Assembly (NCBI GenBank): GCA_023254845.1
Contig: JALRKE010000004.1
Coordinates: 1 to 35,415, forward strand
Direction: 5' to 3'
From: Candidatus Nanopelagicaceae bacterium
GTDB taxonomy: Bacteria > Actinomycetota > Actinomycetes > Nanopelagicales > Nanopelagicaceae
DNA length: 35,415 bases
Positions 27,839 through 35,415 of this stretch are shown here, piece by piece (the first letter of the stretch is position 1; each line of letters begins with the position of its first letter). A program made the position numbers and the translations under genes. The notes beneath the pieces were generated by a model. That model had not been told where the DNA came from and made no database searches. It saw only the letters and a list, made by a program, of their open reading frames with translations.

Positions 27839-28426
27839 TTAGATGAAGAAGTTGCCATCTACTCGAATTGTGGCGCAATCCCGAGTGTTTTCGCTCTTGA
27901 AGTGCTCTTGCTCACGGATCTGCCAAATGCGCATCTCGGTTTCTAGGTAATCACCATCCCTTCTCAGGACTCTCTGTAATCCGACTTCTGAATCAATATC
28001 AATCCAGATTAATTCATCAGTAAAAGCCCTCGTTGCTTTCTGTCCTGAACCAACTCCCTCCAGGATTAGTAGCTTTGGAAAAGGATGAGAAATTAGATCT
28101 CCAAATGACTTACTTAGCCAATCGTATTTTCGAAATCCAAGTGGTTTGCCTTGAGCAGCAGGCGTAAGTATCTGATTTACAAGTGTTCGCGTGAGCTGTG
28201 CAGTAAGCGCATCTTCCCAACCGTTGTAGAGGTCATCCATATGAATGGTAAGTACTTGGCCACCTTCATAGTTCTCCGAAATGCGATTTGCCAAAGTTGT
28301 TTTTCCTGAGCCCGCGGGTCCATCGATGGATATCGCTCGACTCAATGCAGATTTACGTGGACCTGTGCGTAGTCGCTCCAAAATATTCTCAAGTGAGATA
28401 TTTGCTACTTTCTTAGCTTCAGCCAT
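27839..28426 (-). CDS. Uridine-kinase-like P-loop kinase, substrate unknown (candidate thiamine-salvage kinase)
   Basis: P-loop kinase of 195 residues from ATG 28426. Walker A is GPAGSGKTT, followed by IHMDDLYNGWED (a substrate/catalytic Asp region) and LLILEGVGSGQ. This is a widespread actinobacterial family annotated as uridine kinase-like, with no settled substrate. Position directly after the pnuT-like gene (22-bp overlap) parallels transporter-kinase pairs that trap vitamins by phosphorylation. The thiamine link is inferred from that and from the leader. The longer frame from 28510 lies inside the transporter gene and was rejected. Confidence 0.78.
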   Translation of the reverse strand: MAEAKKVANISLENILERLRTGPRKSALSRAISIDGPAGSGKTTLANRISENYEGGQVLTIHMDDLYNGWEDALTAQLTRTLVNQILTPAAQGKPLGFRKYDWLSKSFGDLISHPFPKLLILEGVGSGQKATRAFTDELIWIDIDSEVGLQRVLRRDGDYLETEMRIWQIREQEHFKSENTRDCATIRVDGNFFI

Positions 28427-28974
28427 CTGACCAATCCGTAGATAGCTACAAGAGCGAAGACTGAATACAAGAGTGCGGTGAAGTAAAATTCTTGACGCGC
28501 ATAGTGCCAAGTTCCAAATAAGTTGATGGCAAACCAGAGCGACCAGGTCTCATGGAATTGGCGGACCATAATTAACTGGGTTATGGCACTTGCTACTAAA
28601 AGGAGAGAGTCAGGCCAGGATGCAGCTGCGCCAATACTTGCGAGAACCGGAGCGGCGATTAACCAGAGCGTCAGCGCTGCTAAAGCCCAGAGCGCTCGTT
28701 CCTTTGTGGTCATATAGCGAGGTTCAACGCCAGTGGGTTTCCAACCGAACCATCCCCAGATTGCCGCGGCAATGAAGACTATTTGTAGTAAAGCGCTGGC
28801 AAGTAAATCAACGTTGAAGAAGAAGAGACCGTAGAGCGAGCGACCTAAAATCCACCATGGCCAGGCCCAGCGAGTTCCGCGAGCACCTAATGTCACTGCT
28901 GTTAAAGAAGTTAGAACTGAGGCAAATTCAAGGTATGAAACTTCATATCCCCAGGCAGTAAAAAAAGTGTTCAT
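28405..28974 (-). CDS. PnuC-family vitamin transporter, probably thiamine-type (PnuT-like)
   Basis: Membrane protein of 189 residues with about 6-7 hydrophobic segments. It has the PnuC-type motif WGWFGWK and a LFGTWHYARQEFYFTALLYSV segment. PnuC proteins facilitate diffusion of vitamins such as nicotinamide riboside, riboflavin or thiamine, and a downstream kinase traps the substrate. A TPP-riboswitch-like leader before the gene points to thiamine or a precursor (PnuT class). SD AAAGGGG lies just upstream of ATG 28974. It heads the operon pnuT-kinase-pknL-nfo-eamA-ltaE. Confidence 0.85.
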   Translation of the reverse strand: MNTFFTAWGYEVSYLEFASVLTSLTAVTLGARGTRWAWPWWILGRSLYGLFFFNVDLLASALLQIVFIAAAIWGWFGWKPTGVEPRYMTTKERALWALAALTLWLIAAPVLASIGAAASWPDSLLLVASAITQLIMVRQFHETWSLWFAINLFGTWHYARQEFYFTALLYSVFALVAIYGLVRWLKLRK

Positions 28975-28980
28975 CTATAA

Positions 28981-29055
28981 CCCCTTTCCAATTCGCATTA
29001 CCGAACTGGTACAACGGTCGACCCGAAGGTCCTCTCAGCCAAATTTTGGCTCCCG
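28981..29055 (-). promoter_or_regulatory. TPP-riboswitch-like leader (variant) of the pnuT operon
   Basis: On the minus strand the order matches the TPP aptamer: CGGGAGCC, a P3-like stem AGCCAAAATTTGGCT (29051-29037), the conserved CTGAGA (29038-29033), a P3a hairpin GACC-TTCG-GGTC (29031-29020), GACCG, then CCAGTTCG-GTAATG-CGAATTGG (29009-28988), whose GTAATG loop matches the conserved L5. CTGAGA reads the pyrimidine ring in known TPP switches. The usual GAU/GCG internal loop that binds pyrophosphate is replaced by AGU/AUU, so P4-P5 can form one continuous 8-bp helix (one G-U). The 3' end contains the SD AAAGGGG, which favours translational control. Confidence 0.72.
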
Positions 29056-29065
29056 ATTGAGAAGA

Positions 29066-29075
29066 AGATTAGCAT
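29066..29075. promoter_or_regulatory. Bidirectional -10 dyad for pnuT and crtYc
   Basis: AGATTAGCAT reads TAGCAT rightward (29070-29075), ending 5 nt before the crtYc GTG. Leftward it reads TAATCT (29071-29066), sharing the central TA. From TAATCT the pnuT transcript would begin at about 29058-29059, at the very edge of the aptamer. An alternative leftward box, TATGCT (29076-29071), would start it about 5 nt earlier and leave room for a P1 stem. Confidence 0.55.
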
Positions 29076-29080
29076 AAGCC

Positions 29081-29413
29081 GTGCTCAAGTTTGCTTACTT
29101 TGCGATGTTGATCTTTACCTTTGTCGGCTCTATTTGGCTAGAGATTTTCCTAAAAGTTGGAGTACTAAGGAGAATCAAACGCGCGATACTAAGTATTTTG
29201 CCAGTTGCCATTATTTTTCTCATTTGGGACTACTACGCAGTCGCTCAAGGGCATTGGTGGTTTGATAAAAATCAAGTTGTTGGAATATTTGGCCCCAAGG
29301 GTGTGCCGCTCGAAGAGTTCCTATTTTTCATTGTAGTTCCGCTTGCGTCATTGCTGACTATTGAAGCCGTCAGAACTCAGAGACCACATTGGAAATTTGG
29401 TGACGAGAAGTGA
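29081..29413 (+). CDS. crtYc: Lycopene cyclase subunit CrtYc
   Basis: First half of the heterodimeric actinobacterial lycopene cyclase. 110 residues with three hydrophobic helices. The family motif GPKGVPLEEFLFFIVVPL contains the PxEE/FF signature. GTG start preceded by TAGCAT at 5 nt, no SD. Its stop overlaps the start of crtYd (GTGA). The paired subunits close the rings of lycopene; beta-carotene is the expected product, but epsilon-type or C50 cyclases share the fold. Confidence 0.87.
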   Translation: MLKFAYFAMLIFTFVGSIWLEIFLKVGVLRRIKRAILSILPVAIIFLIWDYYAVAQGHWWFDKNQVVGIFGPKGVPLEEFLFFIVVPLASLLTIEAVRTQRPHWKFGDEK

Positions 29414-29715
29414 CCTATACTGAACTTGCAATTCTCAGCGTCCTATTTGTGATTGTCGCTGATCGATATCTCCTTAAGGTTCGGTTACTTGAGAAGAAGG
29501 CATACTGGACGTCCTACTCAATAATCATCTTCTTCCAGCTACTTACAAACTGGTGGCTGACCTCTAGAAATATCCTGAGTTATAGCGAAGAAGTGATTAT
29601 TGGATGGCGAATCGCATCGGCACCGGTAGAGGATTTGTTATTTGGTTTCTCAATGGTCACCCTGACTATGTCTCTCTGGATTTTCTGGGGGCGCAAAGGG
29701 ATACAGCGCTATTAG
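29410..29715 (+). CDS. crtYd: Lycopene cyclase subunit CrtYd
   Basis: Second half of the heterodimeric lycopene cyclase, 101 residues. Hydrophobic helices surround WWLTSRNILSYSEEVIIGWRIASAPVEDLLFGF; the PVEDLLFGF motif corresponds to PxEE in CrtYc. GTG 29410 overlaps the crtYc stop. Its stop interlocks with crtB (4 bp). No lycopene elongase is nearby, which favours beta-carotene over C50 carotenoids (inference). Confidence 0.86.
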   Translation: MTYTELAILSVLFVIVADRYLLKVRLLEKKAYWTSYSIIIFFQLLTNWWLTSRNILSYSEEVIIGWRIASAPVEDLLFGFSMVTLTMSLWIFWGRKGIQRY

Positions 29716-30620
29716 CGGGCTCTGATTGCTCTGACCCAGGCCGGTAGAGCAACACTTAATCTTCTTAGCGTGGAAGTCTTTGCTCGATACTTGAAGACCT
29801 CATAGTTGATTTTCTCCACCTCATCAACAATTCCACAGTAAAGCTCACTCGCTGCTTGGATACACGGCCGTGATGCAGCAGATAGCAGCGCAATTCCTTG
29901 ATCGGACTCACGCTTAAGCCTTCGAACTCGGTCAATCTGGAACTTCAATGCAGCGATAATCTGCGGAGTAAGTATCCTGCGTTCTAACATGGCGCGGTCG
30001 ACGCCAAATTCGGCTAACTCACGCCCGGGGAGATAGATACGGCCTCGGTCGAGATCCTCATTAACATCCCTAATGAAGTTTGCTAACTGGAAGGCAATGC
30101 CTAACTTTTCTGCAGCTACTTTCGCCGCCTCCATTTGACCCGGGAGAGTGCCAAGGATGGGGACCATTTGTAGTCCGATTACCGCAGCTGATCCATAGAC
30201 ATATTCCATCAGATCCTCAAAAGTTTCATATTCAGTCTTATCAAGATCCATGGCCATAGAGTGCAAGAAAGCCTCAAAGTAGGAAATTGGGATATTAAAT
30301 CTATTTACGGTATCAACTAAGGCTCTGCCGATGTGATCATCACTTCTTCCGGCCTTGATATCTCGAAGTAATTGAAAGCTCCAAAGTTCTAACTCTTCAC
30401 GCTTCTCCTGAGGGGATAGTTTTGAATCTAAATCATCAACAATTTCGTCCGCGTATCTCGCAAAGCCATAGAGAGCGTGAACAAAGGGCCGTTTACTCTT
30501 GGGAAGTAACTGGGTTGCTAGGAAGTAGGTCTTTCCATGTTGCGAATTAAGTCGCTTGCACTCCAAGTAAGATTGACGCAGGTTTTCATCTTTTATACCT
30601 GCCGCTTCTAACTCATCCAT
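29712..30620 (-). CDS. crtB: Phytoene synthase
   Basis: Condenses two geranylgeranyl diphosphates to phytoene. 302 residues. First aspartate motif YADEIVDDLD (57-66) and second NFIRDVNEDLDRGRIYLP are intact. HALYGFARYADE precedes the first motif, as expected. Last gene of crtE-crtI-crtB; it starts with an 8-bp overlap with crtI. Confidence 0.95.
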   Translation of the reverse strand: MDELEAAGIKDENLRQSYLECKRLNSQHGKTYFLATQLLPKSKRPFVHALYGFARYADEIVDDLDSKLSPQEKREELELWSFQLLRDIKAGRSDDHIGRALVDTVNRFNIPISYFEAFLHSMAMDLDKTEYETFEDLMEYVYGSAAVIGLQMVPILGTLPGQMEAAKVAAEKLGIAFQLANFIRDVNEDLDRGRIYLPGRELAEFGVDRAMLERRILTPQIIAALKFQIDRVRRLKRESDQGIALLSAASRPCIQAASELYCGIVDEVEKINYEVFKYRAKTSTLRRLSVALPAWVRAIRAR

Positions 30621-32091
30621 TTCCAGTTATTCGCTCTGCAGCTAACTTTCCAGAGATTAATACCATCGGAACGCCAACACCAGGCTGAGTTCCACTTCCA
30701 GCGAAGACCACGTTCTCAAATCCTTTAGCCATATTGCCCGGCCTAAATGGACCAGTTTGGAAGAAAGTGTGTGCACTTGCAAAAGGCGCACCCATTTCAT
30801 GTCCCATTGCCTGCCACTCAAGCGGTGTGGTCAGATGCTCAACTTCAATGGAATCGCTAAAACCGGTATATCCGCGTGACTCCATCACACGAACCATCTC
30901 ATCACGATAACGAGCCGCCTCATGCTTCCAATCAATATCAGCGCTTAGATTTGGAGTAGGGAAGAGGATGTAATAGCTCTCTTTTCCTTTTGGTGCGAGC
31001 TCTGGATCATCATGAGATGGAACCGTCACCAGCAAGCTTGGATCAGTCATTAGCCGCTTTTCATCAATTAGCTCTTCGAATACGCCATCCCAGGAGTTAC
31101 CGAAATGAATATTGTGGTGTGCGATGTGGTCATATCGCTTCTTTGAGCCAGCAAGAAGAACTGCGCAAGAAGGGGAGTAATTCAATCGTTTAACTCGTCG
31201 CGGCGTCTTATTGAGGAGTTCTCGATATGCAACTGGAAGATCCGGGCTCAAAATGATGGCATCGCACGGATAGCGGGAGCCATCCTGGGTGATTGCAGCA
31301 GTAACGCGTCCGCCACTCTTTTCGAGTTCTGTTACCTTCGAGTCGTAGTGAATCTTGACTCCATGTTTGGTTGCGGCTCCGGCAAGGGCTCGAGGTAGCG
31401 CATGCATTCCGCCCTTGGGAAAGAAGACGCCATTTACCGAATCCATATATGCAATCACGGCATAAATTGCAAGAGCTTGCTGTGGGGATACCCCGGCATA
31501 CATCGCTTGAAATGAGTAGACCCGTTGAGTTCTCGGGTCCTTTAGAAATTGCGAAACTTTAGGTGCGAGTTTGCGGAACCCACCAATTGCAATCAATCGA
31601 GCGAGATTGGGAGTGAGGAGATTAAATGGAGTGTCAATATTCTTATCGATAAAATCATTCATCTCATACTTATAAAGCTTGGTTACAAAGTCAACATATC
31701 TTCGATAGCCAGCAGCTTCATCGCCACCGATGACTTGGGCAATCTCATCTTCCATCTTGGATGTATCAGCGTGCACGTTGAGGATGCTGCCATCTGAATA
31801 GAAAGCCCGATACAAGGGCGAAAGCGGCATTAATTCAAGCCAATCTTCCAAACTTTCTCCCACACAATTAAGCGCATCTTCGATGAGTGAAGGCATAGTT
31901 AGAACAGTTGGACCGGTATCGAATGAATACCCCTCTTTCTTCAATAATCCATTGCGGCCACCGGGAACCGACTCACGTTCTAAAATTGTTACTTCATGTC
32001 CGGAGCCAGCCAATCGCAGCGCAGCGCTCAGCCCAGAGAGTCCAGCGCCAACAATTACAACTCGATCGCGCTTGCCTTTGACTCTACGCAT
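30613..32091 (-). CDS. crtI: Phytoene desaturase
   Basis: FAD-dependent desaturase converting phytoene to lycopene. 492 residues, the usual length. The N-terminal dinucleotide motif VVIVGAGLSGLSAALRLAG lies at 11-29, followed by ILERESVPGGRNG. The C-terminal signature is VVFAGSGTQPGVGVPMVLISGKLAAE. Lies 7 nt after crtE and overlaps crtB. Confidence 0.95.
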   Translation of the reverse strand: MRRVKGKRDRVVIVGAGLSGLSAALRLAGSGHEVTILERESVPGGRNGLLKKEGYSFDTGPTVLTMPSLIEDALNCVGESLEDWLELMPLSPLYRAFYSDGSILNVHADTSKMEDEIAQVIGGDEAAGYRRYVDFVTKLYKYEMNDFIDKNIDTPFNLLTPNLARLIAIGGFRKLAPKVSQFLKDPRTQRVYSFQAMYAGVSPQQALAIYAVIAYMDSVNGVFFPKGGMHALPRALAGAATKHGVKIHYDSKVTELEKSGGRVTAAITQDGSRYPCDAIILSPDLPVAYRELLNKTPRRVKRLNYSPSCAVLLAGSKKRYDHIAHHNIHFGNSWDGVFEELIDEKRLMTDPSLLVTVPSHDDPELAPKGKESYYILFPTPNLSADIDWKHEAARYRDEMVRVMESRGYTGFSDSIEVEHLTTPLEWQAMGHEMGAPFASAHTFFQTGPFRPGNMAKGFENVVFAGSGTQPGVGVPMVLISGKLAAERITGNG

Positions 32092-32098
32092 CTAAAGT

Positions 32099-33163
32099 TC
32101 AACTCTTTCTTTTAGTAGCGGCAAGGGCCATCTCTTCAAGGCTCTTTGCCACGTTGATATCCAACTCTGGATGCTCGAGGGCAGAGAGAGCTTGATTCAA
32201 CAACCGTTGAATCAACTCTTCACATTCCGCGAGCGCACCCGAATCCTCTATCAATCGTTGGATTTCTGCGACTTGAATTGCGTTGAGAGTTGAATCACCG
32301 AGAGCGCGTTCTATTTTCGCCCGAACGCTCGAATCCGAGCGCTCTGAGGTCATGGCTATCAAGACAGTTCGCTTACCCTCGCGAATGTCATCGCCAGAAG
32401 GCTTTCCAGTCACTTTGGAATCACCAAAGACTCCAAGGATGTCATCGCGAAGTTGGAAAGCTTCGCCCAAAGGAAGGCCAAAGTCGGAGAGAGATTGTTG
32501 TAGCGATTCGCTCGCTCCAGCGAGAGCTGCTCCGAAACGAAGCGGGCGTTCAATCGAATATCTTCCAGATTTGTAGCGAGCAATCTTCCTGGAGCGATCT
32601 AAATCTGATTTCCCTAACGCTCCCTCTAATACATCTAAGTATTGGCCAGCCATCAACTCGGCCCGCATCTCATGAAAAATCGGAATAGCTCGCTTTACTT
32701 GGAGTTCTGTGATTCCAGATTCACTAATCATCTGATCACTCCATGCCAGCGCCAAATCGCCAAAGAGTATGGCGGCAGCAAGGCCAAATTTTTCGGGACT
32801 TCCAGAGTAGGCGCTCTGGCTATGGAGCGCTTCAAATCTCTTATGTAGCGCGGGTTTACTCCGGCGCGAGTCAGAACCGTCCATAACATCATCGTGAATC
32901 AACGCGCAGACATGCACTAGCTCTAAAGCCGAACAGGCTCTGAGAACTTGTTGCGAAGGTGTCGCGCCAGCTGCAAGATGTCCAAGATAGGCAAAAATAG
33001 GTCGGAATCTCTTTCCACCATCTAAGACGTACTCGGATAGCGCTTCGGCTACTGGATTTAGATGAGTATCAATGGCCTTAAGTTCGGATGCTCGACTACG
33101 GGTAAATGAATCTAGTTCGGCATCAATAGCGCTACGAATCTCTGAGATTCCCGGCAAAACCAC
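32099..33163 (-). CDS. crtE: Polyprenyl diphosphate synthase (geranylgeranyl diphosphate synthase)
   Basis: Elongates prenyl diphosphates, supplying GGPP for crtB. 354 residues. FARM is DDVMD (91-95) in ALIHDDVMDGSDSRR; SARM is LRDDILGVFGD followed by KPSGDDIREGKRTVL. YVLDGGKRFRP is near the N terminus. Chain length (GGPP) is inferred from the crt context. GTG start lies exactly 6 nt after TACCGT. Divergent from metF with a 24-bp gap; a polyprenyl synthase beside metF is also seen in mycobacteria. Confidence 0.92.
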   Translation of the reverse strand: MVLPGISEIRSAIDAELDSFTRSRASELKAIDTHLNPVAEALSEYVLDGGKRFRPIFAYLGHLAAGATPSQQVLRACSALELVHVCALIHDDVMDGSDSRRSKPALHKRFEALHSQSAYSGSPEKFGLAAAILFGDLALAWSDQMISESGITELQVKRAIPIFHEMRAELMAGQYLDVLEGALGKSDLDRSRKIARYKSGRYSIERPLRFGAALAGASESLQQSLSDFGLPLGEAFQLRDDILGVFGDSKVTGKPSGDDIREGKRTVLIAMTSERSDSSVRAKIERALGDSTLNAIQVAEIQRLIEDSGALAECEELIQRLLNQALSALEHPELDINVAKSLEEMALAATKRKS

Positions 33164-33169
33164 AGCGCA

Positions 33170-33179
33170 ACGGTACCCT
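33170..33179. promoter_or_regulatory. Bidirectional -10 dyad for crtE and metF
   Basis: ACGGTACCCT reads TACCCT rightward (33174-33179), ending 8 nt before the metF ATG, and TACCGT leftward (33175-33170), ending 6 nt before the crtE GTG. Both share the central TA. No SD is present on either side, so both messages are probably leaderless. Confidence 0.55.
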
Positions 33180-33187
33180 CAACCCGT

Positions 33188-34033
33188 ATGCCGAGCACTC
33201 CATCTTTCTCAGTCGAATTCTTTCCGCCAAAAGATATGGCAGGAGAAGCGCGCCTCTGGGCATCCTTAGATGCGCTCGCTCCATATAAGCCTGACTTTGT
33301 CTCGGTTACTTATGGAGCTGGCGGAAGTACTAGGGATCGCACGATAAGAATCACTAGCGAGATAACAAAGCGCACAGGGCTTCCAACGGTCGCACATCTA
33401 ACTTGCGTTGGTTCGACTGAAGACGAATTACGGGAGACTTTGAAAAATTATCGAAGCGCAGGAATAACCTCAGTACTTGCGCTGCGAGGAGACCCCGAAG
33501 GTGGACCTGCATCTAATTGGCAGAGCACAGCCGGAGGATTCGATCATGCTGACCAACTTGTATCACTTGCTCGAGAATTAGGTTTCGAAGTCGGCGTTGC
33601 TGCATTCCCAGATAAACATCCAGCATCAAGGGACCTCAATCAAGATGTCAAAGTGCTACTTGAGAAAGAGCGACGAGGAGCAACCTTTGCCACAACACAA
33701 TTCTTCTTTGGCGTCGAAAAGTACTTAGAGCTAAAAGAGCGACTTCGAGTGAGTAACTCAAAACTTCCACTGATTGCTGGAATTCTTCCAATAACAAATG
33801 TCAAACAATTAGAGCGGATGGCGCTCTTGAGCGGAACTCCAATCCCGCACGCAATCAAAGCTCGAATAAGCTCACTCGAATCAACTCCTGAATTAGTTAG
33901 AGCGGAAGGTGTGGCAATTGCCGCCGAGCTAGCTCAAGATTTGATTGCCACAGGAACTCCTGGGATTCACTTCTACACCATGAATTCTGCTGAGTCGACA
34001 ATCGAAATTGTAAAACGCGTAGGCATTCGATAA
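33188..34033 (+). CDS. metF: Methylenetetrahydrofolate reductase
   Basis: Reduces 5,10-methylene-THF to 5-methyl-THF for methionine synthesis. 281 residues in a TIM barrel. SVEFFPPKD (8-16) carries the catalytic glutamate E10. VSVTYGAGGSTRDRT, HLTCVGST, LALRGDP and TQFFF complete the folate/FAD pocket. Start ATG 33188; leaderless by promoter spacing. Followed after 8 nt by the CDP-alcohol transferase gene. Confidence 0.94.
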   Translation: MPSTPSFSVEFFPPKDMAGEARLWASLDALAPYKPDFVSVTYGAGGSTRDRTIRITSEITKRTGLPTVAHLTCVGSTEDELRETLKNYRSAGITSVLALRGDPEGGPASNWQSTAGGFDHADQLVSLARELGFEVGVAAFPDKHPASRDLNQDVKVLLEKERRGATFATTQFFFGVEKYLELKERLRVSNSKLPLIAGILPITNVKQLERMALLSGTPIPHAIKARISSLESTPELVRAEGVAIAAELAQDLIATGTPGIHFYTMNSAESTIEIVKRVGIR

Positions 34034-34041
34034 TCAAGAAA

Positions 34042-34683
34042 ATGAGTAGAGGGATGAGCAAAGAAGAGTTATTCTCGAATTGGAGCACGCTTCATGGTGG
34101 CGCCGAAGTTAAGGGAATCGTGCGCGCTTGGCTGACCATTAGTTTTTATATCACCCGACCAATAATTATCTTGAGGCTTTCACCAAATTCATTGTCGCTT
34201 CTCTCTATTTTCGCTGCAGCTGGATTTCTACTTGCGCTAGAGAGTCATTGGGCAATTACGCTGTTGGTGCTCTCACTTTTATTGGATGGGATAGATGGAA
34301 CCGTTGCAATTGCGACTGGGAAGAGCTCAAAATTTGGAGCCCTGGTCGATAGCGTTGCAGATCGATTAGTAGAAGGGTTATGGGCAATGGCGCTCTATCT
34401 TTTGGGCGCTCCTTGGCAGGTAGTGATAACAGCCTGGTTAGCAGCTTTCGTTCAAGAGTACTTACGAGCGCGCGTTGGCGGACTTGGCGTTAATCAAGTT
34501 CTCTTCGTAACCTGGTGTGAACGGCCCGTTCGAGCCACTCTGATTTTTATTCCGCTGATAGGAAGGCTCTTTGGTTTTGACTTATTCGAGTTGGCCGCTT
34601 GGATCTGGGCAATAATGCAGCTAACAAGCGCGCTTACGCTATTTAACTTGCTTCGATTGCAGCTGCAACAATCTCAGCGCTAA
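34042..34683 (+). CDS. CDP-alcohol phosphatidyltransferase family protein
   Basis: Integral membrane phospholipid-synthesis enzyme, 213 residues. The CDP-OH-P signature DGxxA...GxxxDxxxD is seen as LDGIDGTVAIATGKSSKFG followed by ALVDSVADRL. About five or six TM helices. Possible substrates include glycerol phosphate, inositol phosphate or myo-inositol derivatives; the sequence does not decide. Start could be ATG 34042 or ATG 34054; no good SD separates them. Its 3' end overlaps the convergent CrtI-like gene by 41 bp. Confidence 0.8.
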   Translation: MSRGMSKEELFSNWSTLHGGAEVKGIVRAWLTISFYITRPIIILRLSPNSLSLLSIFAAAGFLLALESHWAITLLVLSLLLDGIDGTVAIATGKSSKFGALVDSVADRLVEGLWAMALYLLGAPWQVVITAWLAAFVQEYLRARVGGLGVNQVLFVTWCERPVRATLIFIPLIGRLFGFDLFELAAWIWAIMQLTSALTLFNLLRLQLQQSQR

Positions 34684-35415
34684 GTGCGACCAACGGCAAG
34701 CCCCCACCGGGGTGAGCAGAGCCGCCAACGCAATAGAGATTTTCAATCGGGGAGCGATTACGTGCTCTTAAGAATGCCGAGCGCATTCCATTACTTGAAG
34801 TTCCATAGATGGAACCACCGGGTGCCCGATAATCACGTTCTAGATCCGCTGGAGTTCTAATCTCCATCTTTAATATTCGATCTCTTACATGAATTCCCTT
34901 GCGCTCCATTTGGGAGATGATGTGATTGGCATATTCCTCTTTAAATCCCGCGTGATTCCAATCTGTGCCTAATCCTGGTTCATGACGTGGAGCATTAATA
35001 AGGACAAACCACGCTTCGTGATCAGGCAAAGGCACCATGGTTTGGTCTTGCGGATTGCAGATATAGATTGCAGGGTCTTTCGGTGGCTCCTTGCGCTTAA
35101 AGATTGCATCAAACTCATCATCGTAGTTCTCCGGAAAGATCACCGTGTGATGCTTTAAATCACTCTTGCCTCTTAAAGACAACAGAAGTGAGAAGCCAGA
35201 GAGTGAGGGAGTAGCTCGCTTCAAGGCATTGAGCGCTTTCTCTCCCTTTGGCTCTCCTTTAACAAGCTTCCCATAAAGTTCTGAGGCATCAGTATTTGAA
35301 ATAACGAGATCACAAACAAAGCTTCTGCCGTCGGCCAAGGTAACTCCAGTAGCCCGGCCCGCCTCTGTCTTGATAGCGCTAACCTGTGAATTCAAGTGAA
35401 TCTCAACGCCGAGCT
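34643..35415 (-). CDS. CrtI-like FAD-dependent oxidoreductase (partial, runs off right edge)
   Basis: The last 257 or so residues of a second phytoene-desaturase-family protein; the frame is open to the window edge (GVEIHLNSQVSAI), so the N-terminal FAD-binding part lies outside. The C-terminal signature LYCVGGSAHPGGGLPLVALSAE corresponds to the crtI FAD motif. It is clearly distinct from crtI at 30613-32091. Possible roles are a carotenoid ketolase/desaturase or another polyene oxidoreductase. Convergent 41-bp overlap with the CDP-alcohol transferase gene. Confidence 0.88.
   Translation of the reverse strand, partial: LGVEIHLNSQVSAIKTEAGRATGVTLADGRSFVCDLVISNTDASELYGKLVKGEPKGEKALNALKRATPSLSGFSLLLSLRGKSDLKHHTVIFPENYDDEFDAIFKRKEPPKDPAIYICNPQDQTMVPLPDHEAWFVLINAPRHEPGLGTDWNHAGFKEEYANHIISQMERKGIHVRDRILKMEIRTPADLERDYRAPGGSIYGTSSNGMRSAFLRARNRSPIENLYCVGGSAHPGGGLPLVALSAEIVAAAIEAS

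Follow-up and report, generated by a model that had tools for sequence, protein, structure and literature searches.

A TPP-type aptamer predicted to lack the diphosphate-contacting loop precedes pnuT in the Nanopelagicaceae

The leader of pnuT in Candidatus Nanopelagicaceae bacterium, a member of one of the most abundant freshwater bacterial groups (Nanopelagicaceae, acI), carries a variant of the TPP aptamer. It was studied in a stretch of 35,415 nucleotides (contig JALRKE010000004.1, positions 1 to 35,415), here called the window, and in the genomes of relatives. Judged from sequence and alignment, the element is almost certainly the scaffold of the TPP aptamer from which the internal loop contacting the diphosphate has been removed. 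The variant is conserved throughout the family, its remodelled helix covaries, and within the family it is restricted to pnuT. About an even chance is given to the full explanation, a family-wide variant that acts as an off-switch on a thiamine-uptake operon and has thiamine or TMP as its likeliest ligand.

Anatomy of the aptamer

The element runs on the minus strand from the first C of CGGGAG (29055) to the last G of the Shine-Dalgarno sequence AAAGGGG (28981). The sequence from CGGGAG to the Shine-Dalgarno sequence reads CGGGAGCCAAAAUUUGGCUGAGAGGACCUUCGGGUCGACCGUUGUACCAGUUCGGUAAUGCGAAUUGGAAAGGGG and is followed by the ATG at 28974. The following parts were assigned:

28981-29055, minus strand: whole element, variant TPP-type aptamer with Shine-Dalgarno sequence (RF00059 match; 103.8 bits with the family model R1, the window being within the R1 training set)
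29015-29055, minus strand: P2, enclosing P3, J3-2 and P3a; CGG 29055-29053 pairs with CCG 29017-29015 (RF00059 alignment)
29038-29050, minus strand: P3, GCCAA/UUGGC (RF00059 alignment, leader alignment)
29033-29038, minus strand: J3-2, CUGAGA, the pyrimidine-reading T-loop (sequence; role according to PMC3764141)
29020-29031, minus strand: P3a, GACC-UUCG-GGUC (sequence, RF00059 alignment, folding)
29002-29009, minus strand: 5' strand of the fused P4-P5 helix, CCAGUUCG; the canonical J4-5 A61-U62 is absent
28996-29001, minus strand: L5 loop, GUAAUG
28988-28995, minus strand: 3' strand of the fused P4-P5 helix, CGAAUUGG; J5-4 C77-G78 is absent
28981-28987, minus strand: Shine-Dalgarno sequence AAAGGGG, beginning directly behind P4, with 6 nt to the ATG at 28974
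29066-29071, minus strand: -10-like TAATCT (consensus match)

A preliminary description of the window had named a CTGAGA motif, a P3 stem and a GTAATG P5 loop upstream of pnuT. All of these were recovered, the motif as CUGAGA at 29038-29033 and the loop at 29001-28996. The continuous pairing of the two P4-P5 strands over 8 bp was likewise borne out: CCAGUUCG (29009-29002) pairs with CGAAUUGG (28995-28988), both when folded alone and within the minimum-energy fold. Three of its statements held in part. The UUCG-capped P3a is present in the window, but among the leaders read it was limited to part of the window's genus. The diphosphate loop, thought to be replaced by AGU/AUU, is indeed gone, but according to the RF00059 alignment it was excised (2+2 nt) and not merely replaced. 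The Shine-Dalgarno sequence, placed in the 3' strand of the helix, adjoins the helix but starts right after P4 and is not part of it.

At a relaxed threshold, RF00059 matched positions 28969-29066 with 42.3 bits (E 4.6e-7), all model positions from 1 to 105 being covered. The gathering score of RF00059 is 54.3 bits, and no Rfam family reached its gathering score anywhere in the window; the leaders of relatives scored about 30-46 bits. The alignment lacks two model positions on either strand of P4-P5 and is otherwise clean except for P1 and small changes of loop length: the consensus ACCUgAUccGG..CCggCGuAGG becomes ACCAG--UUCG..CGAA--UUGG in the window. The absent part is the 2x2 internal loop, A61-U62/C77-G78 of E. 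coli. In the TPP aptamer, G60, C77 and G78 are highly conserved and bind the metal that holds the diphosphate, the only direct contact being made by G78; U39-A43 make up the pyrimidine-reading T-loop, L5 docks on P3, U59-A80 is a conserved P4 pair, and the junction is closed onto P2 by A56-G83 and A53-A84 (PMC3764141). In the family variants U59-A80 is replaced by A-U, C-G or G-C, and position 83 is an A instead of a G. With the pyrimidine side and L5 kept, the loop lost and these positions altered, only one half of the pocket is affected. An alternative register with a normal J4-5 was rejected, as RF00059 itself puts the deletions there and P4-P5 folds as 8 bp; scoring of the element with RF00059, which had been proposed as a check, also turned up no strong canonical match with a normal J4-5.

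Conservation, covariation and target genes

RF00059 matches from 100 relatives were read, and a further 40 loci later. A family model, R1, built on 34 pnuT leaders, matched in 274 of the 296 genomes of the order, which rules out decay in a single MAG. R1 scores formed two groups, one of pnuT variants at about 72-104 bits and one of canonical TPP switches at about 13-51 bits; the leaders from f39, another family, and from f32 scored 59-71 bits, between the groups or just under the pnuT variants. Among 69 pnuT leaders of the family, drawn from many genera, the P4-P5 helix was an unbroken 8 bp in 37, 8 bp with one bulge in 29 and irregular in three; the single extra nucleotide of the 29 sits on the 3' strand and is an A, C, G or U. 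CGGGAG, GACCG and CUGAGA were unchanging across the 34 aligned leaders, and CUGAGA was found in every further leader read. Invariance was also observed for CUGAGAGG, found in every leader read, and, by sequence, for UAAUG, found in 74 of 74 variant elements (69 of the family and five from outside it), counts to be read with the caution that the leaders were located by models and patterns including these motifs.

The alignment of leaders from related pnuT genes, also suggested beforehand, revealed an element conserved in relatives with a covarying P4-P5. In the inner six pairs of 24 distinct sequences 95 % of the cells were paired, two-sided changes occurred in four of the six pairs, and the covariation score was 0.556 versus 0.276 for shuffled alignments (0 of 500), a test inflated by sequence kinship. 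Pairing fell to 8-49 % when the 3' strand was shifted by 1-3 columns; together with the recurrence in different genera, this control speaks for a real helix. The fifth and sixth pairs from the loop, located at the canonical unpaired J4-5, alternate between G.U, G-C and A-U and between A-U, G-C and C-G, respectively. The G.U of the fused helix is common, not invariant.

Twenty-three family genomes with no or a weak R1 match were checked at the protein level. Of these, G197 alone had a close pnuT ortholog; the leader of this gene lies at a contig edge and has the variant form, though poorly scored by the model. Wherever the leader of a pnuT ortholog could be read, it was of the variant form, and the search by protein for a canonical leader before pnuT elsewhere in the family found none. 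In a sample of the phylum, PnuT relatives were limited to matches of 27-32 % in three distant genomes. RF00059 found no second TPP element in the window's genome, in an assembly 77 % complete.

The other TPP switches of the family precede thiO-like, thiC, cytosine-permease-like and thiamine-SBP genes, and 11 of 12 keep C77-G78; the exception is a thiamine SBP leader in G043 (L062:833-941) with UA in its place. Family genomes with canonical switches had no close pnuT ortholog. Outside the family, with f39 and f32 set aside, CG was kept in 41 of the 43 loci read from the class, and the two exceptions were Streptomyces-like. Since the site is kept almost always before the family's other thiamine genes, the loss at pnuT is not part of a general relaxation.

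Similar losses were encountered elsewhere in the Actinomycetes. A genus with genomes of 9 Mb (that of G078), apparently Streptomyces-like, has TPP-like leaders without C77-G78 and with a covarying P5 before a thiamine-binding SBP (TIGR01254). These leaders (L197, L199 and L214-L223 among the loci) had a match in 50 of 61 genomes, and most matches fit ACCU[CUG]GCCC[AGC]GGUCAUUC[UCG]GGGUAGG; the diphosphate loop was probably lost independently there. In a third family (G620) a CCUGGUCAG/CUGACAAGG leader precedes a fused ECF transporter with an S-component that we take to be YkoE-like (Pfam label ABC_cobalt). The TPP-like leader at L145:401-501 (52.2 bits) has its J4-5 down to a G/A mismatch and is followed by a gene whose product joins a YkoE-like ECF S-component to two ATPase domains. 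Loss of the loop before thiamine transporter genes thus seems to recur in Actinomycetes. The wider proposal of a natural class that reads thiamine or TMP instead of TPP, has its diphosphate site excised, is dedicated to uptake genes and has arisen repeatedly (acI pnuT, Streptomyces-like SBP, YkoE-type ECF) is put forward tentatively, its chances being judged below even.

The pnuT operon

Two overlapping genes follow the leader:

28405-28974, minus strand: pnuT, PnuC/NMN_transporter family, 189 aa (PF04973, 4.5e-37, 128 bits; TIGR01528, 71.6 bits over 42.45)
27839-28426, minus strand: P-loop kinase gene, sharing 22 nt with the end of pnuT (NF005115/PRK06547, 3.8e-32; uridine-kinase-like matches)

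PnuT-type import is facilitated diffusion and requires trapping of the substrate. PnuT matches the PnuC of 4qtn by sequence. Its substrate would be thiamine and not nicotinamide riboside, to judge from the leader, the distribution of ThiL and TPK and PMC5301498, which reports acI genomes to be auxotrophic for thiamine, to carry a THI element before pnuC/pnuT and to lack enzymes for the use of HMP. ThiL was present in 20 of 20 tested genomes, TPK_catalytic (PF04263) in 0 of 20. A strong ThiE was seen only in the three tested genomes with canonical biosynthesis switches; the pnuT genomes gave two composite matches marginally above the cut-off, neither of them convincing. As import needs trapping and ThiL needs TMP, a thiamine kinase is missing, and the overlapping kinase gene is the natural candidate. 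The candidate kinase may turn imported thiamine into TMP.

The kinase gene directly follows pnuT in every sufficiently long locus, mostly overlapping it or separated by a gap of a few nucleotides, and it adjoins pnuT at the four f39 loci too. It also occurs in genomes without pnuT but with a thiamine-binding ABC protein (SBP) and in one Streptomyces-like genome, hence it is not exclusive to the pnuT operon; it was not found in the tested g6 and g15 genomes. Beside pnuT the window holds a carotenoid cluster (29081-35395) with phytoene synthase-like, phytoene desaturase-like and polyprenyl synthase-like ORFs. A split lycopene cyclase pair (29081-29413 and 29410-29715) belongs to this region, the cyclase gene and pnuT diverging from an intergenic stretch of about 106 nt. 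The carotenoid and protein-kinase genes that flank the operon in the window's family were not found at the four f39 loci, and a tRNA gene lies immediately upstream of the pnuT leader at three f39 loci (L142, L143, L146).

Regulation, ligand and relation to known riboswitches

P1 found no support: the 5' leader was no more complementary to the stretch downstream of P4 in matched than in mismatched partners (10.6 and 10.8, sd 0.25). Pairing of P1, or of the 5' leader with the Shine-Dalgarno sequence, was rejected as the platform of the family: some genera pair, but no more than mismatched sequences do. A P2/Shine-Dalgarno swap in the minimum-energy fold of the window is absent from relatives. 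Nor is the missing P1 a special trait of the variant, as the family's canonical switches appear to lack it as well. The motif TANNNT was located 14-16 nt before CGGGAG, with 66 matches at three positions over the 74 elements, tallied by position. This clustering suggests the -10 box of a promoter and a transcription start that is probably not far from P2, and the family's canonical switches present the same picture.

The first A's of the Shine-Dalgarno sequence are aptamer positions 83-84. A transcript beginning near P2 without P1 would bind a thiamine vitamer in the pyrimidine pocket, the two arms would dock, and the P2/P4 junction would close. With positions 83-84 held in the junction, docking would hide the start of the Shine-Dalgarno sequence and lower import, so that the element would be a translational off-switch. 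The core of the Shine-Dalgarno sequence is unpaired within the aptamer, and its occlusion would therefore follow from the geometry of the junction. In the regulated operon, PnuT would bring in thiamine by facilitated diffusion, the overlapping kinase would probably trap it as TMP, and ThiL would then make TPP.

The conservation of the pyrimidine half speaks for a thiamine compound as ligand. Within the family, the diphosphate half is missing only from switches that control an importer of unphosphorylated thiamine, which points to free thiamine, or TMP, rather than to TPP held by its diphosphate. Most of the affinity of the known TPP aptamer comes from the diphosphate; a thiamine sensor would thus need compensating contacts, and none is visible in the sequence. 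The arm is two layers shorter, and docking of L5 in the known way might fail.

It is possible, though rather unlikely in our judgement, that the element is a simplified TPP riboswitch, in which TPP is bound by its pyrimidine with the phosphates loose against the helix; a weaker affinity would suit a B1 auxotroph with high intracellular TPP. The whole pyrimidine arm and L5 are unchanged, TPP is the end product usually sensed, and one unpaired nucleotide is retained on the 3' strand in 29 of the 69 leaders. The f39 leaders have a bulge of 2-3 nt on this side, perhaps an intermediate stage or a remnant of the site. However, the contacts of G78 and C77 to the diphosphate are gone in the commonest form, the extra nucleotide elsewhere is any of the four bases, and the family's other thiamine-gene switches keep the site almost without exception. 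Streamlined genomes lose regulation, and the absence of P1 covariation and the low RF00059 score would also fit a decayed aptamer without ligand, kept as a structured ribosome-binding leader. This is improbable, because across the family P3 and P3a are free to vary, whereas neither the pocket nucleotides CUGAGAGG nor the docking loop UAAUG shows any change, and because the canonical switches also seem to start near P2, so that the missing P1 is no sign of decay. Sensing of a pyrimidine-only precursor or degradation product of thiamine (HMP, AmMP) would agree with the conservation of the pyrimidine-reading arm only, but is very improbable, as acI genomes lack HMP-using enzymes according to PMC5301498, the tested pnuT genomes have no convincing ThiE, and a thiamine uptake operon has no need of it.

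With the RF00059 TPP riboswitch (THI element) the variant shares P2, P3, P3a, CUGAGA, J2-4, the UAAUG of L5, a full-length model match and its place before a thiamine gene; it differs in the score below gathering, the absent A61-U62/C77-G78, the changed U59-A80, the A in place of G83 and the unsupported P1. For four acI genomes, Kang et al. (2017, PMC5301498) described THI elements before pnuC/pnuT. As gene, position and lineage are shared, ours is very probably the same element. That study takes it for an ordinary TPP riboswitch, and the passages found do not mention an altered diphosphate site, a restriction to pnuT or the kinase. The HMP-PP riboswitch (thiS motif, PMC6478431) likewise senses a metabolite of the thiamine pathway, but has an unrelated fold with an aptamer overlapping the terminator, and was absent among the Rfam matches of the window up to E 10. 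Closest in kind are the variant classes for 2'-dG, WCo and cAMP-GMP (PMC7266159), in which a familiar scaffold is likewise altered nowhere but in the binding pocket and is limited to a particular gene context. Those classes have assigned ligands and arose by base swaps, whereas the pnuT variant has lost part of its pocket and its ligand is deduced. No description of a natural TPP aptamer that lacks the diphosphate site with the rest under selection was found in the open-access literature; the element is already known as a THI element, its changed pocket, as far as found, is undescribed.

The presence of both switch forms in one family, sorted by the gene they control, offers a ready comparative system. 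Should thiamine or TMP prove to be the ligand, one of the best-studied riboswitches would gain a new specificity; should it be TPP, the diphosphate loop would be shown to be dispensable. Whichever the ligand, this vitamin B1 switch of a very abundant group of freshwater bacteria falls below the Rfam cut-off and is missed, and the conserved kinase gene beside it is a candidate for the missing step from thiamine to TMP in acI.
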